Positions 6,205 to 31,933 of a stretch of 64,000 nt of DNA are shown piece after piece. Origin of the DNA: Pseudomonas sp. Irchel s3h14 (GTDB taxonomy: Bacteria; Pseudomonadota; Gammaproteobacteria; Pseudomonadales; Pseudomonadaceae); assembly GCF_900187425.1 (NCBI RefSeq), contig NZ_FYDJ01000006.1, forward strand, positions 186,001 through 250,000, given 5' to 3'. Numbering within the stretch: the stretch's first letter is position 1; every line of letters starts with the position of its first letter. Both the position numbers and the translations under genes were made by a program. The notes below the pieces were generated by a model. It made no database searches and was not told where the DNA came from. It was given only the letters and a program-made list of their open reading frames with translations.

Positions 6205-7902
6205 ATGAGCAAGCCCACTGTCGACCCTACCTCGAATTCCAAGACCGGCCCTGCCGTGCCGGTCAATTTCCTGCGCCCGATCATCCAGGCGGACCTGGAC
6301 TCGGGTAAGCACACGCAGATCGTCACCCGTTTCCCGCCTGAGCCCAACGGCTACCTGCACATCGGTCACGCCAAGTCGATTTGCGTGAACTTCGGTCTGG
6401 CCCAGGAATTTGGTGGCGTCACGCACCTGCGTTTCGACGACACCAACCCGGCCAAGGAAGACCAGGAATACATCGACGCGATCGAAAGCGACGTCAAATG
6501 GCTGGGCTTCGAATGGTCCGGTGAAGTGCGCTACGCCTCGCAGTATTTCGACCAGTTGCACGATTGGGCCGTTGAACTGATCAAGGCCGGCAAGGCCTAC
6601 GTCGATGACCTGAGCCCTGAACAGGCCAAGGAATACCGTGGCAGCCTGACCGAACCGGGCAAGAACAGCCCGTTCCGCGATCGTTCCGTGGAAGAAAACC
6701 TCGACTGGTTCGCCCGCATGAAGGCCGGTGAATTCAAGGATGGCGCACGCGTGTTGCGGGCCAAGATCGACATGGCCTCGCCGAACATGAACCTGCGCGA
6801 CCCGATCATGTATCGCATCCGTCACGCTCACCACCACCAGACTGGTGACAAGTGGTGCATCTACCCGAACTACGACTTCACCCACGGTCAGTCGGATGCC
6901 ATCGAAGGCATCACTCACTCGATCTGCACCCTGGAGTTCGAAAGCCATCGTCCGCTGTACGAGTGGTTCCTCGAGAACCTGCCCGTACCGGCGCAACCGC
7001 GTCAGTACGAATTCAGCCGTCTGAACCTGAACTACACGATCACCAGCAAGCGCAAGCTCAAGCAACTGGTCGATGAAAAGCACGTTCATGGCTGGGACGA
7101 CCCGCGCATGTCCACGCTGTCCGGCTTCCGCCGCCGTGGTTACACGCCGAAATCGATCCGCAACTTCTGCGAAATGATCGGCACCAACCGTTCCGACGGC
7201 GTGGTCGACTTCGGCATGCTCGAATTCAGCATCCGTGACGACCTCGACCACAGCGCCCCGCGTGCCATGTGCGTGCTGCGCCCGCTGAAAGTCGTGATCA
7301 CCAACTACCCGGAAGGCCAGGTCGAGAACCTCGAACTGGCGTGCCACCCGAAAGAAGACATGGGCGTGCGCGTTCTGCCGTTCGCCCGTGAGATCTACAT
7401 CGACCGTGAAGACTTCATGGAAGAGCCGCCAAAAGGCTACAAACGCCTGGAACCTGCTGGCGAAGTGCGTCTGCGCGGCAGCTATGTGATTCGCGCTGAC
7501 GAAGCGATCAAGGACGCCGATGGCAACATCGTCGAACTGCGTTGCTCGTATGACCCGGAAACCCTGGGCAAGAACCCTGAAGGCCGCAAGGTCAAAGGCG
7601 TGGTTCACTGGGTGCCGGCCGCTGCCAGCGTCGAGTGCGAAGTACGTCTGTACGACCGCCTGTTCCGTTCGGCCAACCCTGAGAAGGCTGAAGACAGCGC
7701 CAGTTTCCTGGACAACATCAACCCTGACTCGCTGCAAGTCCTCACCGGTTGTCGTGCCGAGCCTTCGCTGGGCAATGCACAGCCGGAAGACCGTTTCCAG
7801 TTCGAGCGCGAAGGTTACTTCTGCGCGGATATCAAGGACTCGAAACCCGGTCATCCGGTGTTCAACCGTACCGTGACCTTGCGTGATTCGTGGGGCCAGT
7901 GA
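6205..7902 (+). CDS. glnS: Glutaminyl-tRNA synthetase
   Basis: 565 residues; charges tRNA-Gln in the cytoplasm. Class I signatures are present: the HIGH-like site at about residue 50 (YLHIGHA, in [12 protein letters not shown]) and the KMSKS-like site TSKRK near residue 280. The C-terminal beta-barrels that read the anticodon follow. I chose ATG 6205 with AAGGAT upstream; an in-frame extension back to 6082 has no ribosome site and no family support. Having glnS implies direct glutaminylation, in addition to any Gat amidotransferase route. cysS follows 17 bp later, so the two probably share a transcript. Confidence 0.97.
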
Positions 7903-17840: not shown

Positions 17841-17863
17841 TCATTGAAAACGCAGAGGGCACT

Positions 17864-18178
17864 TCAGGTCAGCGCCGCCAGTTGTTGAACCGTCTCCGGA
17901 AAGCGCTCAACCAGCCGGATCAACGTTGTCGCCTGAGCATTAGGTTTCGCTCGTCCTTGCTCCCAGTTTTCCAGCGTCCGGGTATTCGTACGCAAATACA
18001 TCGCGAATACCGAACGGGAAAGGTTGAGCTGTTGGCGTATGGCTACCACTTCCTCGGCAGTGATGGGTACCAGTTTTGGCAGTTTGACCTTGTGGCTCCG
18101 CAGCGTGACCTTACCTTGGCGCTCGTCGGCCAAGGCTTCGAGGCCCTCCATCAGTTCGGAAAAAATGTCACGTTTCAT
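17864..18178 (-). CDS. HigA-like antitoxin, XRE-type helix-turn-helix
   Basis: 104 residues. An N-terminal segment that probably contacts the toxin (MKRDIFSELMEGLEALADER) is followed by a Cro/C1-type helix-turn-helix at about 40-95 (IRQQLNLSRSVFAMYLRTNTRTLENWEQGRAKPN). The toxin gene lies upstream and overlaps it by 11 bp, the reversed order typical of HigBA and NadS-type pairs. It should neutralise the toxin and repress the promoter of the pair. A second, broken copy of this N-terminus exists at 30134-30262. The exact subfamily name is uncertain. Confidence 0.88.
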   Translation of the reverse strand: MKRDIFSELMEGLEALADERQGKVTLRSHKVKLPKLVPITAEEVVAIRQQLNLSRSVFAMYLRTNTRTLENWEQGRAKPNAQATTLIRLVERFPETVQQLAALT

Positions 18179-18518
18179 AGTGAGTTCTCGTATTGATTTC
18201 TCTATCCAGCGTTTGTCTGAAAAGTTTTTTCTGGGCTGGCGTCAGGTCGTCCTGCTCGTTTTTGCTGTACACCGTGAACAGCCAGAATTGATCGAAACCT
18301 GACCACCAGTAATAAATCACCCGTAATCCGCTGCGCTTGCCTTTGCCTCGTCGCTGGTCGGAGAAGCGGACTTTGCGCAAACCGCCCGTACCTTCCACGA
18401 GATCGCCCGCTTCCGGGTTTTTCAGCAGCTCCAGTTGAAAGCTGCGAAACAGTTCGTCGTCCAGGTAGTCATTTCTGTGCTTTTGAAATGCGGGTAATTC
18501 GATAAAAAGAGCGTCCAT
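18168..18518 (-). CDS. HigB/RelE-like toxin
   Basis: 116 residues. It matches the RelE/HigB2 group (COG4737-like) in length and in the pattern GTGGLRKVRFSDQRRGKGKRSGLRVIYYWW, a conserved basic core, followed by FTVYSKNEQDDLT. These toxins cleave mRNA on ribosomes. I chose ATG 18518 (MDALFIELPAF) since family members begin like this. The in-frame extension to 18569 is unsupported, and the ribosome site is weak in either case. The upstream 227 bp hold no gene. Function is inferred from family and from pairing with the antitoxin. Confidence 0.86.
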   Translation of the reverse strand: MDALFIELPAFQKHRNDYLDDELFRSFQLELLKNPEAGDLVEGTGGLRKVRFSDQRRGKGKRSGLRVIYYWWSGFDQFWLFTVYSKNEQDDLTPAQKKLFRQTLDREINTRTHYET

Positions 18519-18745
18519 GTTCTGTACGTTACCTGCGTATATTTCTATCACAAGAATCGAATAGGTCAAGGCTTCTGTTCTTGGCCAATTCGGTCAAGTC
18601 ATTACGTTAAAGTCGAAGGCAGGATCGGGATGTAGGACGAGGCTGATTCACCCGCGAGGCGATTCTGGATATCGGGGAGGAGGAATAAGCGGGCCAGCCT
18701 TATGACCCGAAACTTGCGCTTGCTCGGTGAGGTTCAAGACGGTAT

Positions 18746-20152
18746 CTACATTGCATTTTCGTTTTTGGGGAAAGCGAGTCTGAACACGGTCATCGCACCG
18801 GGCAGGCTTTCAACTTCGGCCACTCCCTGATGCAAGCTCATGATCGAGCGCACGATGGCCAGGCCCAGTCCGGTGCTGCCTTGTGAGCGGGAGCGGCTGC
18901 TGTCGACGCGGTAAAAGCGGTCGAATAGATGCGGCAGATGCTGTGCCTCGATGCCCGCGCCAGGGTTGCTGACCCGCAGCGAAACCTGAGTGGCCTCTTG
19001 CTCAATGTGTAGCGAAACCGTTTGCCCTGCCGGGCAGTGGCGCAGGGCGTTGGACAGCAGGTTCGATATTGCCCGTTGAATCATCAAGCGGTCGCCCAGC
19101 ACGCGTGCGCTGCCGGTCACGCTCAGGCTTATGCGCTTGTCTTGAGCCGACAAGGAAAACAGGTCGGCCACCTTTTCGGCTTCTTCTTCCAGGGCGACCG
19201 ACTCGTAGGACGTGAGCGCTGCCGGGTTACTGGCCTGCGCCAGAAACAGCATGTCCGAGACAATCCGCGCGACACGCTCCAGTTCTTCAGTGCAAGACAC
19301 CAAAACGTTTTTGTACGCCTCGGCCGTGCGTTCCCGGGACAGCGTCACCTGTGCCTTGCCCATCAAATTGTTGATCGGCGTGCGCAGTTCATGGGCCAGG
19401 TCATCGGAGAACTGCGACAACTGCTGCACACCATTATCGAGGCGATCCAGCATGAAGTTGATCCCCCGGGCCAGTTCACTGAGTTCCTGGGGCATGTCGA
19501 GCACCGACAGCCGATGGCCGAGGTCTTGCGTCGAGACCATCGCCGCCACTTTGCGAAACTCGCGCAGCGGCCTCAGCCCCCGCTGTACGGCGGCCCAGGC
19601 ACTGAGGCCGATGAAGATCAGCAGCAACGGCAAAGCAATCAGCGTCGAGCGCAGATAGGCGCTGAGCAACGCCTGGTTGTGGGCATCGTCCATCGACAGC
19701 AGCACCGGGACGCGGGTGCCGTCCTTGATGCGGATTAACCGAGAGGCGGTCAGGTAGCGTTTGTCTTGATCGTCGGTGCTGCCCGAGAACGCCAGTTGTT
19801 CGTTGGCGGCCAGCGCTGCCTTGCGCTCAATACGCGGGTCGACCATGCCAGAGCCGGATTTCAACAGCGGCGTACGCAAGTTGGCGCGGTCATAAATCGT
19901 CAGGGTGAGGTTGTCATGGCCCATGACCTGATCGAGCAGAATGTGCGGCGCCGAACGAATTTCTGCGGAATCGGCGTACAGCGACAGGCTGTGTTCCACC
20001 TGTTCCATCTTCTGGGTCAGGCTGTCCCTGGATAACACGTTCAGTTCATGGGTCAGGGCAAAGAACGCCAATACAGCCAGGAACACCACCAGCACCGCCC
20101 CCAGGATGCTGACGGTCAAGCCCAGGCGCAGCGACAGGCTGGCGGGCTTCAT
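18746..20152 (-). CDS. czcS: Heavy-metal sensor histidine kinase (CzcS/CopS type)
   Basis: 468 residues. TM1 lies at about 10-34, a periplasmic sensor domain at about 35-165, TM2 at about 166-188, then HAMP. The H-box SDDLAHELRTP has the phospho-acceptor His254, followed by the N-box (ISNLLSNALRH) and G-box (GSTGLGLAIV). This is the layout of the CusS/CopS/CzcS heavy-metal kinases. It overlaps the response regulator by 4 bp and lies divergent from czcCBA, so zinc, cadmium or cobalt sensing is the likely role. Copper cannot be excluded from sequence alone. The in-frame extension to 20290 lies inside the regulator gene and is rejected. Confidence 0.9.
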   Translation of the reverse strand: MKPASLSLRLGLTVSILGAVLVVFLAVLAFFALTHELNVLSRDSLTQKMEQVEHSLSLYADSAEIRSAPHILLDQVMGHDNLTLTIYDRANLRTPLLKSGSGMVDPRIERKAALAANEQLAFSGSTDDQDKRYLTASRLIRIKDGTRVPVLLSMDDAHNQALLSAYLRSTLIALPLLLIFIGLSAWAAVQRGLRPLREFRKVAAMVSTQDLGHRLSVLDMPQELSELARGINFMLDRLDNGVQQLSQFSDDLAHELRTPINNLMGKAQVTLSRERTAEAYKNVLVSCTEELERVARIVSDMLFLAQASNPAALTSYESVALEEEAEKVADLFSLSAQDKRISLSVTGSARVLGDRLMIQRAISNLLSNALRHCPAGQTVSLHIEQEATQVSLRVSNPGAGIEAQHLPHLFDRFYRVDSSRSRSQGSTGLGLAIVRSIMSLHQGVAEVESLPGAMTVFRLAFPKNENAM

Positions 20153-20823
20153 TCCCGCGCCTCCAGCACATAGCCGACACCACGCAGGGTATGGATCAGT
20201 TTGCTGTCGAACGGGTCGTCGATCTTGGCGCGCAAGCGGCGGATCGACACTTCGACCACGTTGGTGTCGCAGTCGAAATTCATGTCCCACACCAGCGAAA
20301 TGATCTGGGTGCGGGTGAGCACCTCCCCGGACTGACGCATCAGCAGATGCAGCAGGGCGAACTCCTTGGTGGTCAGGTCGATGCGCTGCTCGCCGCGAAA
20401 GGCGCGATGGCGCCCAGGATCGAGTTCCAGATCGGCGACCTTGAGTACCTGTGGCACCGGGATGTTTTCGCTGCGCCGCATCAGCGTGCGCACCCGCGCC
20501 AACAATTCGGGGAACTCGAACGGTTTGACCAGATAATCATCGGCGCCCAGATCCAGACCACGAATCTTGTCGGCCAGACGCCCGCGCGCAGTGAGCATCA
20601 TCACCCGGGTGGAGTGGGTGCGACGCAATTGTTCCAGCACGCCCCAGCCATCGAGTTCCGGCAGGTTTACATCCAGAATCACCAGGTCATACGCCTGCTG
20701 TTGCGCCAGATGCAGTCCATCGGCGCCGGTGGCCGCGTGGTCAACGATATAACCACTTTCCGTCAGTCCCTGATGCAAGTATTCGGCAGCTTTAAGCTCG
20801 TCCTCGACGACAAGGATTCGCAT
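20149..20823 (-). CDS. czcR: Heavy-metal response regulator (CzcR/CopR type, OmpR family)
   Basis: 224 residues. The receiver domain has acidic pocket E7/D8 and phosphorylated D51 (VILDVNLP), then a C-terminal winged helix of OmpR type (about 125-222) ending RGVGYVLEARE. Length and sequence style match CzcR, CopR and CusR. It is first gene of the czcRS unit and is transcribed away from czcCBA across a 467-bp control region. A candidate binding box for it lies at 21196-21213 and another at 27121-27138. Regulation of both targets is inferred. Confidence 0.92.
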   Translation of the reverse strand: MRILVVEDELKAAEYLHQGLTESGYIVDHAATGADGLHLAQQQAYDLVILDVNLPELDGWGVLEQLRRTHSTRVMMLTARGRLADKIRGLDLGADDYLVKPFEFPELLARVRTLMRRSENIPVPQVLKVADLELDPGRHRAFRGEQRIDLTTKEFALLHLLMRQSGEVLTRTQIISLVWDMNFDCDTNVVEVSIRRLRAKIDDPFDSKLIHTLRGVGYVLEARE

Positions 20824-21195
20824 GATCTTTCACCACTTTTATTTAATGGATATTTAATTAAGGTGGCCGGGAAAGTTGTTGTTTTTGTAGGGGCTTCCGG
20901 ACGGGTTTTAATAACGACTAGATGTTGTGAGTTTCTGGTTTCCGACAGAGATTTCCCTGTGTGATGGCGTGCAAGGTAAAGGCTGTAGTGGCTACAGAGT
21001 CAACTGAAATACTGGGTCTTGAGCCCTGAGAATGGCGATCTGCGACAGCCTGTCGCAGCAGGCAAGCCCGAGTTCCGAAGTGCCGCATTCAGGCAAGTGC
21101 TGTTTGGCAGATAACTGCCGTGTATTTGTTTCTGTGTATTGCTATGTCGCACTTCGCACTTCGCATCCTAGACCAAAACAACTTCCACAAACCGT

Positions 21196-21213
21196 GGATA
21201 ACGGATTTGTAAT
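21196..21213 (+). promoter_or_regulatory. Candidate CzcR/CopR-type box upstream of czcC
   Basis: GGATAACGGATTTGTAAT. The core T-A-A-C-N6-G-T-A-A-T has the same spacing as the reported pseudomonad CopR-type box (TGAC-N6-GTAAT). It ends 77 bp before the czcC start. The same core recurs upstream of the small PtrA-like gene at 27211. The surrounding 467-bp intergenic region (20824-21290) shows nothing else I can assign. Confidence 0.55.
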
Positions 21214-21290
21214 GTTCCAGTCACCTTGCCGATAAGTTCAAAACCCTACCGTGGCGGCATCAAAGATTCTTGAATAAAGGAAGTCTTCCA

Positions 21291-22550
21291 TTGCCCGGTT
21301 TAAAAGAACTGACGGCGCGATCACGCCTGAAAAAAACAGCGAGGACAGTGACGGCCAGCGTTGTGTTGCTGGCCGGCACGGGTCTTGTGCATGCATCGAC
21401 CCTGACCCTCGATCAAGCCCTGCAAACGGCATTCACCGGTAACCCCGATCTGGCGGCGGCTCAGTGGGAAATCGGTATCGCCGAAGGGGATCGGCAGCAG
21501 GCCAGTCTGATCCCCAACCCCGAAGTGTCGTGGGAGGCTGAGGACACCCGCCGCGATTCGCGAACCACCACCGTGATGCTCAGCCAACCGATCGAACTGG
21601 GTGGCAAACGTGGCGCACGAATCGATGTCGCCAGCCGCGCACAGGACGCCGCCGGGATCGAACTGGAGCGCAAGCGCAATGCCTTGCGCGCCGATGTGAT
21701 TCAGGCGTTCAACAGCGCCCAGACCGCGCAACAACGCTTGCAGTTGTCGCGCCAGTCGCTGCAACTCGCCGAACACGGTTTGCGCGTCGCCCAAGGACGC
21801 ATCGAGGCCGGTAAATCATCGCCAGTCGAAGGAACCCGTGCGCAAGTGCAACTCTCTGAAGTACGCCTGGAACTGAGCCGCGCCGAACGCGATCAGGCCA
21901 ACGCCTATCAGCAATTGGCGCAGGTCATGGGCTCACCGTTGCCAACCTCGACCACTGTGCAAGCGGCCACGCAAAGCATGCCCGCCGTGCCACCGCCGAC
22001 CCGATTGCTTGAGCGCCTGAACGAGACCGCCGAGCTGCGTCTGGCCAAATTGCAGATCGATCAGCGCGAAGCCTCATTGGGTCTGGAAAAGTCGCAACGC
22101 ATTCCCGACCTGACCGTGAGCATTGGCAGCCAATACAGTGAAACCGAGCGCGAGCGGGTCAACGTGGTCGGGCTGTCGATGCCGATTCCGCTGTTCAATC
22201 GCAATCAGGGCAATGTGTTGGCGGCGGCCCGGCGCAGCGATCAGGCGCGGGATCTGCGCAACGCCACCGAGCTGCGTTTGCGCACGGAAATCCAGACCAC
22301 CCTTGAGCAATGGCAGACCGCCAACGGCGAAGTCGAAGCGTTCAACCAGACCATCCTGCCCGCCGCGCAAAGTGCGGTCGACAGCGCCACGCGCGGCTTC
22401 GAAATGGGCAAGTTCGGATTCCTCGACGTGCTCGACGCCCAACGCACCCTGATCAGCGCGCGCAGCCAATACATCCAGGCCGTCAGCGAGGCGACGGACG
22501 CGCGAGTACGCATCGAACGCATCTTCGGCGACCTCTTCGTCAGCCCTTGA
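21291..22550 (+). CDS. czcC: CzcC-like outer-membrane factor of heavy-metal efflux pump
   Basis: 419 residues from TTG 21291. A signal peptide of about 35 residues ends at HA-S, and two OEP repeats of the TolC fold follow. It gives the CzcCBA pump its outer-membrane exit. I prefer TTG 21291 because AAAGGAA lies 8 nt upstream; TTG 21270 has no such site. Non-ATG initiation may limit expression. It is 49 bp upstream of czcB in one operon. Family assignment is from operon position, length and the HME-type partner genes. Confidence 0.88.
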   Translation: MPGLKELTARSRLKKTARTVTASVVLLAGTGLVHASTLTLDQALQTAFTGNPDLAAAQWEIGIAEGDRQQASLIPNPEVSWEAEDTRRDSRTTTVMLSQPIELGGKRGARIDVASRAQDAAGIELERKRNALRADVIQAFNSAQTAQQRLQLSRQSLQLAEHGLRVAQGRIEAGKSSPVEGTRAQVQLSEVRLELSRAERDQANAYQQLAQVMGSPLPTSTTVQAATQSMPAVPPPTRLLERLNETAELRLAKLQIDQREASLGLEKSQRIPDLTVSIGSQYSETERERVNVVGLSMPIPLFNRNQGNVLAAARRSDQARDLRNATELRLRTEIQTTLEQWQTANGEVEAFNQTILPAAQSAVDSATRGFEMGKFGFLDVLDAQRTLISARSQYIQAVSEATDARVRIERIFGDLFVSP

Positions 22551-22599
22551 ATTTCATCTTTCAGATCACTGCGCGATGGCATGGCGCAGAGGAGTTTCC

Positions 22600-23793
22600 A
22601 TGGAAAAAAAACTGATCGTGGTTGCTGCGGCGACGTTGGCGCTGGGCATTGGTATTGGCTCGATGTGGCCGGGCAATGCGTCCATCGACGCTCACGCCGA
22701 TGAAGCGGCGGAACACGCCGATCACGCTGAAGAAGGCGCTGCAGCCGACGGTGAACATACAGAAGAAGGGCACTTGGAGTTGAGCACCGAACAGATCACA
22801 GCGGCGGGCATTCAACTGGCCGAAGCGCGGGCGCAGAACATCAGCCTCGGTTTGCCGTTCCCCGGCGAAGTGCGCTTTGACGAAGACCGCACCGCGCACG
22901 TGGTGCCGCGCGTCCCCGGCGTGGTCGAGTCGGTGTCGGTCAATCTCGGGCAGTCGGTGAAGAAGGGCCAGTTGCTGGCGGTGATCGCCAGTCAGCAGAT
23001 TTCCGATCAGCGCAGCGAACAGGCTGCCGCACAGCGTCGCCTGACCTTGGCGCGCACCACCTACGAACGCGAGAAAAAACTGTGGCAGGACAAGATCTCC
23101 GCCGAGCAGGATTTCCTTCAGGCACGTCAAGCATTGGAAGAAGCCGAAATTTCCCTGACCAATGCCCGGCAAAAAATCAGCGTGCTCAGTGGCAGCGTGG
23201 TCGCCACCGGCGGCAATCGCTATGAACTGCGCGCGCCGTTCGACGGCGTGGTGGTGGAGAAACACCTGACGCCGGGGGAGGTGGTCGATGAATCCTCGGC
23301 GGCTTTTACGCTCTCCGACCTGTCGCGGGTGTGGGTGACGTTCGGCGTTTCGCCCAAGGATCTGAACAAGGTGCAAGTGGGCAAACCGGTCACCGTCAGC
23401 GCCCCGGAACTCAATGCCGAAGTCGCCGGCACCGTGGCCTACGTCGGCAGTTTGCTGGGTGAACAGACCCGCACTGCAACGGTTCGCGTGACCCTGGAAA
23501 ATCCGCAAGGCTCGTGGCGCCCCGGCCTGTTCGTCACCGCGCTGGTTGCTACCGACAGTCGCCAAGCCAAGGTCGCCGTGCCTGAAACCGCGATCCAGAC
23601 CGTCGAGGACAAACCCACGGTGTTCGTGCGCACCGACGACGGCTTCAAGGCGCAACCGGTGGAACTGGGCAGTCGCGCGGCCGGTTTGGTGGAAGTCACC
23701 CAAGGGCTGGAACCGGGCGTGCAAGTCGCCAGTGCCGGCAGCTTCGTCCTCAAATCGGAGTTGGGCAAAGCCTCAGCCGAGCACTCTCACTGA
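22600..23793 (+). CDS. czcB: CzcB-like periplasmic adaptor of heavy-metal efflux pump
   Basis: 397 residues from ATG 22600, which follows AGAGGAG. An N-terminal hydrophobic anchor/signal (about 3-20) precedes a His/Glu-rich stretch at about 28-60 (repeated A-D-H-A-E-E pattern). This resembles the metal-binding N-terminus of CzcB-type adaptors, and the C-terminus again ends H-S-H. Lipoyl, coiled-coil and barrel domains of the HlyD/RND adaptor fold follow. It joins CzcA to CzcC and may hand over metal ions. The shorter start is chosen over 22576 because of the ribosome site. Confidence 0.92.
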   Translation: MEKKLIVVAAATLALGIGIGSMWPGNASIDAHADEAAEHADHAEEGAAADGEHTEEGHLELSTEQITAAGIQLAEARAQNISLGLPFPGEVRFDEDRTAHVVPRVPGVVESVSVNLGQSVKKGQLLAVIASQQISDQRSEQAAAQRRLTLARTTYEREKKLWQDKISAEQDFLQARQALEEAEISLTNARQKISVLSGSVVATGGNRYELRAPFDGVVVEKHLTPGEVVDESSAAFTLSDLSRVWVTFGVSPKDLNKVQVGKPVTVSAPELNAEVAGTVAYVGSLLGEQTRTATVRVTLENPQGSWRPGLFVTALVATDSRQAKVAVPETAIQTVEDKPTVFVRTDDGFKAQPVELGSRAAGLVEVTQGLEPGVQVASAGSFVLKSELGKASAEHSH

Positions 23794-26985
<3,192 letters not shown>

Positions 26986-26995
26986 GTGATCCCCC

Positions 26996-27085
26996 TGTGG
27001 GAGCGGGCTTGCTCGCGAAGAGGCCGTGTCAGTCAACAAATGCTTTGAATGACACACCGCCTTCGCGAGCAAGCCCGCTCCCACA
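26996..27085. repeat. REPIN after czcA
   Basis: Left arm TGTGGGAGCGGGCTTGCTCG and exact inverse at the right end, with a loop of about 40 bp. It has the same size and arm sequence as the copy at 4566. Confidence 0.92.
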
Positions 27086-27120
27086 TTCGTTATTTACCCT
27101 GATTCAACAGAGTGGCAGCC

Positions 27121-27138
27121 ACATAACGGATATGTAAT
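27121..27138 (+). promoter_or_regulatory. Second CzcR/CopR-type box, upstream of the PtrA-like gene
   Basis: ACATAACGGATATGTAAT shares 15 of 16 bases of the core ATAACGGATTTGTAAT found before czcC, and its end lies 72 bp before the start codon, nearly the same distance (77 bp there). This points to co-control by the nearby two-component system. Confidence 0.55.
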
Positions 27139-27210
27139 CTCCACGCCACCGTCACGAAAGGTTCGGATTGTTACCTTGATCCCGTCAGTTAATTAAACGA
27201 GGAATCAAAC

Positions 27211-27411
27211 ATGAAACTTGCACAACTGAGTGCGTTTGCAGTGGCGTTGGTGATGTCTTCCATGGCATTGGCCGAAGGCGGCGGCGACCGAACTTTCGAA
27301 AAAATGATGACCGCCAACGACCGCTCCGTAGAGCTGTTCGTAGCCAAGGAACAGGCCCGCGACCCAGTCGTCGTCAATGAAAAGAAGGACGACAACACCA
27401 AAGACTTGTAA
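27211..27411 (+). CDS. Small periplasmic PtrA-like protein, copy 1
   Basis: 66 residues. The signal peptide ends at A21 (SSMALA, then EGGGDRTFE). The mature part is about 45 residues, charged, with no cysteine. The A-E-G-G-G-D-R-T-F-E block is the conserved N-terminal motif of small Pseudomonas proteins named after PtrA, a copper-inducible regulator of type III secretion in P. aeruginosa that is encoded next to copRS. Here the gene lies next to czcCBA with a shared box upstream, so metal induction is likely. A ribosome site (ACGAGG) precedes the ATG. Function is not known. Confidence 0.72.
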   Translation: MKLAQLSAFAVALVMSSMALAEGGGDRTFEKMMTANDRSVELFVAKEQARDPVVVNEKKDDNTKDL

Positions 27412-27428
27412 GCGTGTCGCACTTGAAC

Positions 27429-27466
27429 AAGCCCGTCGTCGAGTCCCGATGCCGGGCTTTTTTTAT
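27429..27466 (+). terminator. Terminator between the two PtrA-like genes
   Basis: Stem AAGCCCG / CGGGCTT with a 17-nt loop, followed by a run of T. It lies 17 bp after the first small gene and overlaps the leader of the second, so only part of the transcription may continue. Confidence 0.7.
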
Positions 27467-27479
27467 GAAGGTATTGAAC

Positions 27480-27812
27480 ATGAAACTTATCAAGTTGATG
27501 ACGTTCGCCGGTGTGATGGCGATGTCCCTGAATGTGCTGGCTGAAGGTGGGGGCGACCGGACGTTCGAGAGAGCGCTCAGTGCCAACACCAAAGCCATGG
27601 AGCAATACGCGGCCAACCAGGGCAAACCGGCGCCTGTGGTCAAGGATTATGAATACGGGATGAAGCTGGACGTGGTGAAAGTGGTGAGCGTTGTGCGGCC
27701 GCAAGTTGCCTGCGCTGTAGTTCCCACCGCAATGACCTACGAAGACTCGAAGGGCCAACTCAACACCATCAAATACACCGTGGCAGGCGATTGCCGCAAT
27801 CGCGGCGGCTGA
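27480..27812 (+). CDS. Small periplasmic PtrA-like protein, copy 2
   Basis: 110 residues. Signal peptide and first mature residues match copy 1: AEGGGDRTFE sits at residues 21-30 in both. The C-terminal half is different and has two cysteines (VACAVV and AGDCRN) that could form a disulfide in the periplasm. The start is ATG 27480; the open frame begins at 27414 but overlaps the terminator. It is a tandem paralogue of copy 1 with a new C-terminal extension. Role unknown; metal stress is suggested by context only. Confidence 0.68.
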   Translation: MKLIKLMTFAGVMAMSLNVLAEGGGDRTFERALSANTKAMEQYAANQGKPAPVVKDYEYGMKLDVVKVVSVVRPQVACAVVPTAMTYEDSKGQLNTIKYTVAGDCRNRGG

Positions 27813-27870
27813 CACCAATTCCCCTGTGGAGCTGCCGAAGGCTGCTCCTGCAGTGCTCAATCTACAGGCA

Positions 27871-27895
27871 TAAAAAAGGCGCCCCGAAGGGCGCC
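27871..27895 (-). terminator. Terminator of the OprD-like gene (minus strand)
   Basis: GGCGCC-CCGAAG-GGCGCC hairpin. On the minus strand it is followed by TTTTTT, as expected downstream of the porin gene that ends at 27961. Confidence 0.82.
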
Positions 27896-27960
27896 AAAAG
27901 ATTCACCTCTTACCAAAGGAGCAAGGAGCTTCTAAAGGTGAATTTGCATGAGCCGTGAAG

Positions 27961-29286
27961 TCAGAGAATCGCCAGCGGATACTCGATAATCACCCGCACT
28001 TCATCCAGATCCGATTCATACGCAGTGGCTCGGGTATTGGCCTGACGCAGGCGCAGCGACATATCTTTCAACGAACCACTCTGCACCACGTATTTGACTT
28101 CGATGTCGCGCTCCCAGCGCTTCTGGTCGGTCAGCGGGTTGCCGTCGGAATCACGGCGCATGTACACGGCGTTGGCACTGGAATAGTCGGCGTCGGTGCC
28201 GCGGGCGTAACGGGTCATGAACGACAAACCCGGCACGCCATAGCTGCTCATGTCGAGGTCGTAATGCACCATCCACGAACGTTCCTTGGGCGAGTTGAAG
28301 TCGCTGTACTGGATGGAGTTGTCGAGGAAGATCGAGTCGGACTGGCGCAGGTAGTCGAAGTCGTCGTTGCCGTTGTTGCGCTGGTGCGATAACGCAACGG
28401 AGTGGGCGCCGAGTTTCACCCCGACCCGGCCGCTCCAGATGTTGTTGTCGAACTTGCCGAGCAGTTGTTTGCCTTCGTCGACCGCCTTGTAATAGTTCAG
28501 GCCACCGAACAGCGACAGGTCATCCGACAGTGGGTAAGTCCACGCAGTGCCGGCGTAGTACTGATTCCAGGCATCCTTGAGGCGACTGGAATACAGGCTG
28601 AAACTGAGGTTCTTGTTCAGCGCGTAATCACCACCGAAGTAGCCGACCCACGGCGAGTTGACCGGGCCGGCATAGAAGGTCGCGAAGTTCTCGCGCATGT
28701 CGCTGGACACCGGTTGGCTCATCGCATGCAGGCGACCGCCCTGTACCGACAGACCTTCGATACTGGTGTTGGTGGCCGTGACACCCCGGAAGCTTTCCGG
28801 CAACAGTCGGGAGTCACCCGCCGCAACCACCGGGTTGGCGGGGAACACATCGCCGACCTTCACCACCGTATCGAAGGCGCGCACTTTGGCGGCGCCACCG
28901 ACCTTGGTGTATTCGTCCCGCGCCTGGCCATCACTGTCGACCGGCAGCACATCAAACGAACTACGGCCACCGTTGCGCCCGTCACCGGTATCAAGCTTCA
29001 AACCGATCATCGCAAACGCATCGACACCGACCCCGACGGTGCCCTGTGTAAACCCTGATTCGAACTTGCTGATGACCGCATGGGCCCAGGCCTCGGAATA
29101 ACCATTGCCAGTGGGGCTGGACTGGCCGTCACGGTGATCACGATTGAAGTAGAAGTTGCGGTTGAGCACCGTCAGGCTGCTGCCCTCGATAAACCCCTCG
29201 GCTTTATCTTCCGCAAACACCATGGACGGCCCGGAGCCGACAACCACAGCTAAAGCGGCTATCGACATTTTTGTATTGTTAACCAT
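27961..29286 (-). CDS. OprD-family outer-membrane porin
   Basis: 441 residues. The signal peptide ends at about A25 (SMVFA, then EDKAEGF). The mature start, GFIEGSSLTVLNRNFYFNRD, is the hallmark of the OprD/Occ family of 18-strand porins that admit basic amino acids or carboxylic acids. The C-terminus ends with a hydrophobic strand (VRVIIEYPLAIL). ATG 29286 follows AAGGAG with a spacing of 6 nt; TTG one codon earlier is less likely. It stands alone between the small metal-linked genes and the toxin-antitoxin module. No transporter or enzyme gene is beside it, so the substrate cannot be guessed. Confidence 0.93.
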   Translation of the reverse strand: MVNNTKMSIAALAVVVGSGPSMVFAEDKAEGFIEGSSLTVLNRNFYFNRDHRDGQSSPTGNGYSEAWAHAVISKFESGFTQGTVGVGVDAFAMIGLKLDTGDGRNGGRSSFDVLPVDSDGQARDEYTKVGGAAKVRAFDTVVKVGDVFPANPVVAAGDSRLLPESFRGVTATNTSIEGLSVQGGRLHAMSQPVSSDMRENFATFYAGPVNSPWVGYFGGDYALNKNLSFSLYSSRLKDAWNQYYAGTAWTYPLSDDLSLFGGLNYYKAVDEGKQLLGKFDNNIWSGRVGVKLGAHSVALSHQRNNGNDDFDYLRQSDSIFLDNSIQYSDFNSPKERSWMVHYDLDMSSYGVPGLSFMTRYARGTDADYSSANAVYMRRDSDGNPLTDQKRWERDIEVKYVVQSGSLKDMSLRLRQANTRATAYESDLDEVRVIIEYPLAIL

Positions 29287-29456
29287 CAATCACTCCTTGG
29301 GTTCGGCAGAACGGGAACGTGCTTCGGCGTAGGTTTTATTGTTCGGCGGGCAAGGGCCCGCCGGCATGGTCGCCGGGTGACATCGTCGCAAGCTGCGGAT
29401 AACGCCAAGGTGATGGGGGAATTACAATTTCGTCATGTGCATCTGATGTTGCCCGA

Positions 29457-29834
29457 TCAGACCAAAACAGCCAGATCCGTGTACCGGGCAACCAATGGAT
29501 CGGCGGTGAGGAGTTTCATGGGTTCTGTCATGGCCGTTGCAACAATGAGGCGGTCAAACGGGTCCCGATGGTGATGTTCGAGGTCCTTCACGGCAATGGC
29601 GTGTTCTGAGGTCACGGGCAGTTCGATGAACCCGCTGTCGAGGCAGTACTGCCGGATTTCCTCCAGGTCAACGTTCAGCTTTCCCAGCCCGACCTTGATC
29701 GCCATCTCCCAGAATGTCGCTGCGCTGATGTAAATGTCGGCAGCGTTCTGAATAAGCGTTCTGGCTTTGCCGGATAGCCTGGGGTCATCGCTGAGCGTCC
29801 AGAGCAATATATGCGTGTCGAGCAGAAGCCTCAT
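29457..29834 (-). CDS. PIN-domain toxin (VapC-type)
   Basis: 125 residues, the standard length for a PIN-domain ribonuclease toxin. The acidic metal-binding residues are visible: D6 in LLLDTHILLW, E in TFWEMAIK, D in DPFDRLIVATA and D in LLTADP. It should cleave RNA when freed from its antitoxin. The start overlaps the antitoxin stop by 4 bp (ATGA), typical of translational coupling. The 170 bp between this gene and oprD hold nothing else that I can support. The target RNA is unknown. Confidence 0.92.
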   Translation of the reverse strand: MRLLLDTHILLWTLSDDPRLSGKARTLIQNAADIYISAATFWEMAIKVGLGKLNVDLEEIRQYCLDSGFIELPVTSEHAIAVKDLEHHHRDPFDRLIVATAMTEPMKLLTADPLVARYTDLAVLV

Positions 29835-30073
29835 TCTTGAGTGCCTTCAAAAGCATCAAGCATGTCGTTCGGCAATGGAGCGTCGAACTCTTCGGGCAGT
29901 ACCAGTTTGCCTTTCATTGCTCCGATACGCTGTGCGCAGGGTTTTCCCACGGGAACGAGGCGGGCAAGTGCCCGACCATGTTTGGTAATCGTGATGACCT
30001 GTCCCGCGGCGGCGTCATCGACGAGTTTAGATAGATTGTTTTTTGCTTCTGCCAACGGAACAATGATCATCAT
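29831..30073 (-). CDS. Phd/YefM-type antitoxin
   Basis: 80 residues from the ATG at 30073 (a second ATG follows at 30070; GGGAG lies just upstream). The Phd/YefM fold is recognisable from VPLAEAKNNLSKLVDDAAAGQVITITKHGRALARLVPVG: a DNA-binding N-terminal half and a toxin-binding tail. It pairs with the PIN toxin that overlaps it. The reading frame remains open upstream through a relic of a HigA-like antitoxin to 30304, so a longer fusion product is possible in principle. Confidence 0.9.
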   Translation of the reverse strand: MMIIVPLAEAKNNLSKLVDDAAAGQVITITKHGRALARLVPVGKPCAQRIGAMKGKLVLPEEFDAPLPNDMLDAFEGTQE

Positions 30074-30133
30074 GTGTCTCCCGTATTCTGGACAAATATA
30101 GCCAGAATTTTTGGGGGCGGCAAAGTTGTGCGG

Positions 30134-30304
30134 TTCCTCATTGATGACGGAGGCTAGTTTGGCGGCTTTCGCTTTTGGGTGTAGCAGTGAGACTTTTCCT
30201 TGGCGCTCAGCGGCCAAAGCATCGAAGCCTTCTACCAATTCTAAAAAGATGTCACGTTTCATTATTCGTTCTCGCCTTGATTGCTCTATCCAGCAGTCAC
30301 TCAA
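30134..30304 (-). pseudogene. Remnant of a second HigB-HigA-like locus
   Basis: On the minus strand this region encodes MKRDIFLELVEGFDALAAERQGKV..., matching the first half of the intact antitoxin at 17864-18178 both in protein and in DNA. Directly before it, in the toxin frame, the last 13 or so codons of the toxin (LLDRAIKARTNNET, compared with TLDREINTRTHYET) persist, ending in the same overlapping stop. The rest of the toxin gene and the antitoxin helix-turn-helix are missing. A flank TGTAGGACGAGGC at 30332 also occurs near the intact locus at 18631. This looks like a deleted copy onto which the Phd/VapC pair was joined. Confidence 0.8.
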
Positions 30305-30415
30305 GATAGAGCCAAGTGCTCAATGCTGGCTGTAGGACGAGGCGGATAGTCCGGCGAGAGCTTTCGGGGATTGCGAGAGGAGGGGAGTGCAGCGGTAACA
30401 AATCGTACAAACGCA

Positions 30416-30440
30416 AAAACGGCACCCGAAGGTGCCGTTT
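30416..30440 (-). terminator. Terminator of the nuo operon
   Basis: Stem AAACGGCACC / GGTGCCGTTT with a CGAA loop. On the minus strand it is followed by TTTGCG. It lies 30 bp beyond the nuoN stop. Confidence 0.82.
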
Positions 30441-30469
30441 CTGTTTTCTACCAAGTACCGCTTAAGCGA

Positions 30470-31933
30470 TCAACCCGCCAACCCCGCCTGCTGAACCAGA
30501 ATCAGCAACGGCTGCGGATACAGACCAAGGAAGAACGCCAGTGCAGCGATCGCCAGCAGCATCACGCCGCCTGCACGTTGTTCCCAGTGCAGTTGCGCAT
30601 CGTGGCGACGCAGGTTTGGTTCGATCAGGAACAGGGTGACCATGACGCGCAGGTAGTAGAAGACGCCGATGGCGCTGCCCAGTACCAGGGAGCCGACCAG
30701 CCACCATTGGTGCGACTCGACACCGGTAGCGATGATGTAGAACTTGCCGATGAAGCCCGCGGTCAGCGGGATGCCGGCCAGGGACAGCATCATCACGGTC
30801 AGTACGGCGGTCAGGTACGGACGGCGCCAGAACAGGCCGCGGTATTCGTACAGGGCATCCGCGTCACGGCCGTTGTACGGCGAGGACATCAGGGTGATCA
30901 CGCCGAACGCGCCGAGGCTGGTGATCACGTAGGTGACCAGGTACACGCCGATGGCTTCCACGGCCAGACCCTTGCTCGCCACCAGGGCGATCAGCAGGTA
31001 ACCGAAGTGAGCGATGGACGAGTAACCCAGCAGACGCTTGAGGTTGCTCTGGGTCAGTGCCAGCAGGTTACCGAACAGGATCGACGCGATGGCGATGATG
31101 GTCAGCACGTCGCTCAGTACACCGCTGCTCGCCGCCGGCGAGATCTGGAACAGACGCACCATCACTGCGAACACAGCGACTTTCGAAGCGGTGGCCAGGA
31201 ACGCGGCCACCGGTGCCGGAGCACCTTCATAAACGTCCGGGGTCCAGAGGTGGAACGGTACCAGCGACAGCTTGAACGCCAGACCGATCAGCATCATGCC
31301 CAGGCCCAGTTGCGCCAGCGAGCTTGGCAGACCAGTAGCCGCCAGCGCCTGGCCGATACCGACGAAGCTCAGGCTGCCCGAATCGGCGTAGAGCAGTGCC
31401 ATACCGAACAACAGGAACGCAGAACCGGCGGCCGACAGCACCATGTACTTGATACCGGCTTCCAGCGAACGCTTGTTGAAGAAGGCATAAGCCACCAGAC
31501 CGTAGACCGGTACCGAGAGCAGTTCCAGACCGATGAACAACCCGGCCAGGTGCTGCGCGCTGACCAGTACCAGGCCACCGGCGGCGGCCATCAGGATCAG
31601 CAGGTAAAGTTCTTCACGGTTGCCCGGGTAACCCGAACCGCCATCGCCGAGGTAGGCGTGGGCGAGGGTCACACAAGCGAGGGTGGCGACCAGGATCAGC
31701 GCCATGTACAGGCAAGCGAAGGTGTCGATCTGCAGCAGTGGAGTCACGGCCAGAGGCGCGACTTTCAGGGCTGGCAGGATCGACAGCAACGCCAGGTTCA
31801 GACCCGCCACGGAAATCAGGAAGGTCTGCGAGTGGTTGCGGCGCCAGGCAATCGCCAGCATCACCACGATGATCGTGACGCTGGTGATCAACAACGGCGC
31901 AAGCGCGATAAAGTGTTGAGTCGTGAATTCCAT
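30470..31933 (-). CDS. nuoN: NADH-quinone oxidoreductase subunit N
   Basis: 487 residues with about 14 membrane helices of the Mrp-antiporter type. It is the last gene of the operon and one of the three large proton-pumping membrane subunits of complex I. The open frame extends to 31996, but ATG 31933 gives the family-standard start MEFTTQHF, 7 bp after the nuoM stop. The antiporter signature is visible around [23 protein letters not shown], with the conserved lysines of the transmembrane proton path expected. Sequence is ordinary for a pseudomonad. Confidence 0.96.

Follow-up and report, generated by a model that had tools for sequence, protein, structure and literature searches.

The locus lies on the minus strand of a 64,000-nucleotide window from Pseudomonas sp. 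Irchel s3h14 (the whole stretch of DNA analysed) and ends with vapC (29457..29834), which encodes a PIN-domain toxin (Pfam PIN, PF01850, E 2e-17) and overlaps by 4 bp the end of a phd antitoxin gene. The short form of phd (29831..30073) encodes 80 residues, matches PhdYeFM_antitox (PF02604, E 5e-12) and TIGR01552, both beyond their cut-offs, and has a pN/pS of 0.13–0.24 in the fused frames described below. These profile matches confirm the Phd antitoxin and PIN toxin that the initial annotation had proposed from the letters alone. Upstream of the short form are a ribosome site, GGGAG (30078–30082), a palindrome found by direct reading, ATTCTGG-N10-CCAGAAT (30085..30108), which is the probable Phd operator, and a predicted sigma-70 promoter of phd–vapC, TTGCCG-17-TATATT (30095..30123), whose −10 box the palindrome overlaps.

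The phd frame is also open further upstream, giving a long form of 143 residues (29831..30262) composed of a HigA-type N-terminus, a linker and the complete Phd antitoxin, with the predicted promoter lying inside it. The N-terminus is made up of a HigA-derived helix (codons 1–21, MKRDIFLELVEGFDALAAERQ, 30200..30262; 79% DNA identity to intact higA), and the linker (codons 22–45, 30128..30199) is drifting and derives at least partly from the DNA-contacting part of higA. Overlapping the long start, the last 14 codons of a higB gene, including its stop codon, are retained as LDRAIKARTNNET (30252..30293) and align in frame with LDREINTRTHYET of an intact higB, so that the overlapping higB stop and higA start are both preserved, as had been noted earlier.

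These remnants can be compared with an intact toxin–antitoxin locus in the same window, with higA (17864..18178) and higB (18168..18518) also on the minus strand. It is of the HigB2/HigA2 type, both proteins matching the solved Vibrio cholerae pair at E about 1e-27 (HigA with PDB 5J9I/5JAA, E 1e-27; HigB with PDB 5JA9 and related HigB2 chains, E 2e-28). BLASTN of 29830–30420 against 17850–18720 aligned 88 of 111 bases (79%) without gaps (97.8 bits, E 3e-24), pairing 30184–30294 of the minus strand with the higB/higA junction of the intact locus; under 2/−3 scoring the same alignment scored 107, against a maximum of 32 in 500 dinucleotide shuffles. Homology is firm over the last 11–14 codons of higB and codons 1–26 of higA, and faint up to about codon 43. 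The initial annotation, which had set 30134–30304 against 17864–18518 and counted about 44 antitoxin codons, was right about the homology and slightly generous about its extent.

The bulk of higB and the HigA helix-turn-helix are missing from the fused locus, again as first described; Phd and VapC come instead, and no HigB2-type RelE-fold toxin gene is adjacent. Across 27.9–30.5 kb, including the region downstream of vapC, no match to the HigA helix-turn-helix or a C-terminal remnant was found. A search for an insertion that left the HigA C-terminus 3′ of vapC found no such remnant in the window, and a search of the strain's own genome returned no third HigA N-terminal copy of this kind. The two loci also share a 13-base flanking string on the plus strand, TGTAGGACGAGGC, located upstream of the intact HigBA locus (18631..18643) and near the fused one (30331..30343; earlier placed one base off, at 30332). 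The 6.7 Mb genome contains it exactly twice, which rules it out as a common repeat. An element resembling TGTAGGACGA...GAGAGCTTTCGGG occupies 30331–30395 and 18631–18690, and in many Pseudomonas a looser form of it lies ahead of HigBA and of the fused phd genes.

Both loci belong to a variable slot of the genus, downstream of nuoN and toward a sugar-ABC substrate-binding gene. In many genomes this slot holds an intact HigBA in the same orientation, in others VapC–Phd with the HigA N-terminal fusion, and in several there is in addition a czc metal-efflux/oprD cassette, which is present or absent by genome. The order in the window is HigBA on the ABC side, the czc–oprD cassette, then VapC–Phd with its fused end on the nuoN side; genome G083 has the same parts spread over two contigs. 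Between the two toxin–antitoxin loci, 18746–29289 contains a metal-efflux cluster (a sensor kinase and czcCBA-type RND genes) and an OprD-family porin, with the gene names in this cluster read from the sequence and no family search.

The same HigA-N::Phd frame was found in about 30 other Pseudomonas genomes at roughly 62–79% protein identity, the carriers being recovered by a search of 399 genomes of the genus and a separate scan for Phd patterns. In the VapC–Phd tree nearly all carriers of the HigA-type leader fall in one clade (97/85, 42 rows) and a small neighbouring group, apart from loci with other leaders elsewhere in the chromosome. Synonymous differences among carriers are near saturation (pS about 0.65). 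Judged from the tree and from this divergence, the fusion is ancient and probably arose once, a single origin being the simplest reading. The replacement of one toxin–antitoxin type by another, as originally proposed, is upheld in that phd is joined to the higB 3′ end and the higA start, that intact HigBA occupies the same slot in many Pseudomonas and that the HigBA upstream element is shared. It was neither an event of this strain, the fusion being common to about 30 genomes and dating to the ancestor of the VapC–Phd clade, nor a clean swap in this genome, where HigBA is still present 12 kb away. HigBA alone and VapC–Phd with a different leader both occur in relatives; this independence of the parts, which the initial annotation had listed as contrary evidence, is to be expected if two parts that already existed were fused.

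Smaller joins of the same two antitoxins occur in other species. In 12 genomes a frame of 61 residues runs straight from the HigA helix into the Phd C-terminus behind its own SD-like motif, with weak constraint (pN/pS 0.52) and with neither VapC nor HigB beside it in the loci examined, and two further genomes have a 65-residue hybrid with a different junction. Small frames of this HigA helix–Phd C-terminus kind, with at least two different junctions, lie at loci L126–L137, L206:5164–5334 and L207. Genome G029 carries, besides the fusion, a stand-alone 56-residue HigA N-terminal frame near the fused locus (L120, flipped coordinates about 7646–7816), with no helix-turn-helix or HigB. The two or more junctions imply that joining or trimming has recurred, and they are what would favour several recent, independent fusions, each with constraint inherited from a functional higA. 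For the full-length frames we consider such an origin very improbable: these carriers group together in the VapC–Phd tree, have similar linkers and a shared spacing (about 63 codons), and are almost saturated with synonymous differences.

If the higA fragment were inert, untranslated debris upstream of a normal phd–vapC operon and not yet deleted, neither protein-level constraint nor a stable frame would be expected. Across 16 fused frames, pN/pS was 0.28 over codons 1–12, where third positions diverge freely, 0.69 over codons 13–30 and 0.82 over codons 31–45 (0.7–0.9 over the linker, codons 22–45). Ten roughly independent sister pairs, hand-picked from the tree, gave a dN/dS of 0.52 for codons 2–21 (P = 2e-4 against neutrality, kappa 2) and a neutral-looking 0.88 for codons 22–45 (P = 0.2). 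Constraint on the helix codons at the protein level is moderate, and the linker alone fits neutrality.

The reading frame tells in the same direction. HigA helices upstream of phd were sought in all frames and counted at a score of at least 30, the maximum in 300 shuffles being 21. A helix was found in 39 loci, in frame with phd in 37 and frameshifted in two. The effective number is smaller, because 11 of the 39 are short variants that are nearly identical. One of the 37 in-frame copies carries a stop. The in-frame helix lies 32, 60, 62, 63, 64 or 74 codons from phd, and in 32 of the 39 loci the long start has an SD-like motif ahead of it. G355 has an internal deletion after which phd can be read only from the start codon of HigA; this frame is shifted in two relatives. 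The helix has been lost or altered in several lineages; in the common short variant, MNRDIVCEW, the Phe and Leu of the hot spots discussed below are missing.

An inert scar, as the initial annotation had it, would draw on the neutral linker, on the loss of the fragment in some relatives together with the one stop and two frameshifts, and on the promoter, operator and ribosome site that phd owns downstream of the fragment. Against it stand the purifying selection on codons 2–21, the free third-position divergence in the helix codons, and a frame kept in nearly all loci, where lengths differ by multiples of three. We regard it as unlikely. A join that is old, in reading frame and under selection looks like a two-part antitoxin rather than dead debris.

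Conservation of a different kind marks the block between linker and phd. Codons 46–61 of the fused frames are equally conserved at the three codon positions (.81/.81/.82), the sign of a DNA element, and this block holds the predicted promoter and the palindrome. In a scan of 29800–30480 the promoter was the sole promoter-like site; no promoter for a long transcript was found in that interval, the helix being upstream of the only one predicted. The palindrome, the putative Phd operator, is kept in the fused loci and is changed in both arms alike (TTTTGGC-GCCAAAA) in other VapC–Phd loci. Loci L174–L203, Pseudomonas VapC–Phd loci away from nuoN, have TTTTGGC-N8-GCCAAAA ahead of the Phd start and an unrelated Phd leader that is in frame and about 39 codons long (MDVxYxKxSRxERAAxASGxAVFDS...FGYIWPK). 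This leader follows an SD-like motif and shows weak protein-level constraint.

The fused helix aligns with the HigB2-binding segment of V. cholerae HigA2, residues 3–23. A peptide of these residues alone binds HigB2 with a KD of 3 pM, through hot spots at R4, L6, F7, L10, A13 and L14; a triple substitution by alanine abolishes the interaction (PMC8438204). The corresponding positions in the window's fused helix are R3, I5, F6, L9, G12 and F13. HigA2 residues 24–32 take part in fuzzy binding to the operator, and neutralisation does not require them (PMC11006873). Both segments are under constraint in the intact HigA of Pseudomonas, with a pN/pS of 0.33 for codons 1–12 and 0.23 for codons 22–32, whereas in the fusion the values are 0.28 and 0.80, the second segment being unconstrained. 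The retention of constraint on the helix and its release over codons 22–32 suggest that selection has tracked the toxin-binding function and freed the DNA-binding one. This pattern is the main argument, and an indirect one, that the fused helix may have a HigB-binding role. An AlphaFold model of the fused protein with 11 homologues had a pLDDT of 40 and a pTM of 0.30 and was set aside.

The distribution of HigB does not parallel that of the helix. Among 16 fused carriers, a close HigB is present in the window genome and G083 and broken in G151, and is absent from the other 13; it is no commoner than in the genus at large (85 of 399 genomes). This comparison does not support retention of the helix on account of a cognate HigB in the carriers. 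In G151 (L159, C102:19631–19978) a higB with an internal TGA lies close to the fused phd–vapC, and the toxin there appears to have been lost beside the chimeric antitoxin. HigB2-family toxins were found on 770 plasmid records, of which 18 are from Pseudomonas and nearly all below 60% identity; toxins of this type are common on plasmids, which makes an anti-addiction use possible and proves nothing. Plasmid matches to the fused frame cover the Phd part only.

The absence of cognate HigB from most carriers favours a different role, in which the long form would tune the stability or autoregulation of Phd or couple translation, and the HigA helix would serve as a generic helix or protease tag that binds no HigB. 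Other loci of the same VapC–Phd family point the same way: their leader is unrelated, in frame and some 39 codons long, with its own SD-like motif, so that an extended start is habitual in the family. Less readily explained by such a role are the match between the constrained residues and the HigB2 hot-spot pattern, with the remaining HigA part drifting, and the short hybrids, in which the helix persists although neither a complete Phd nor VapC is present. We hold this regulatory role to be a serious, if not the favoured, possibility. It agrees with the chimeric-antitoxin reading that the fusion is translated and differs from it only on what the helix does, and the confidences placed in the two overlap.

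We favour the interpretation, with a probability of roughly 0.6, that the locus encodes an old, translated chimeric antitoxin rather than a scar. Its basis at the level of sequence is the homology to higBA, the fusion shared among genomes, the kept frame, the protein-level constraint on the helix and the DNA-level constraint on the promoter block. In an ancestor of the VapC–Phd clade, which is mostly found in the nuoN-proximal slot, a phd–vapC module would have entered a resident higBA by recombination, with the loss of most of higB and of the DNA-binding domain of HigA, leaving the toxin-binding helix of HigA in frame before phd. Two products are most likely: an ordinary 80-residue Phd, made from its own promoter, operator and ribosome site as the self-regulated partner of VapC, and a 143-residue long form initiated at the HigA start codon, whose N-terminal helix could still grip HigB2-type toxins. 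We infer that the long form is translated, that its helix binds HigB and that it protects against HigB arriving from elsewhere, for example on plasmids. Counting against the chimeric-antitoxin reading are the scarcity of close HigB, the lack of a long-form promoter, the moderate constraint and the loss or alteration of the helix in several lineages. More tentatively, and as less likely than not, the long form may be a bivalent antitoxin, one polypeptide in which the captured HigA helix neutralises a RelE-type HigB and Phd neutralises a PIN-type VapC, and the short hybrids may be stripped-down solitary antidotes against incoming toxin–antitoxin modules.

The locus combines features of known systems. 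Its helix aligns with the toxin-binding segment of HigA2 from V. cholerae HigBA2, but unlike that system it has no neighbouring HigB and no helix-turn-helix, and the disordered part that contacts DNA has drifted. It resembles Phd/YefM–VapC modules in its complete Phd, its upstream promoter and palindrome and its overlapping PIN-domain toxin gene, and differs from them in having the toxin-binding part of a second antitoxin in frame ahead of phd and in the position of the promoter, inside the long frame. Antitoxin parts without their own toxin recall the solitary, anti-addiction antitoxins of chromosomes (PMC7354431), which the short HigA helix–Phd C-terminus hybrids resemble. No precedent for natural fused or chimeric antitoxins was found in the open-access literature searched. 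To our knowledge, the known solitary antitoxins are single antitoxins, not joined neutralising segments for two toxin folds.

Antitoxins are usually viewed as one antitoxin to one toxin. A conserved join of the neutralising segments of two families would show a route to multi-toxin immunity in one protein, and would also show how one module can succeed another at a slot with protection retained. The locus would further represent a natural separation of function, in which selection has preserved the half of HigA's disordered region that binds toxin and allowed the half that binds DNA to drift.
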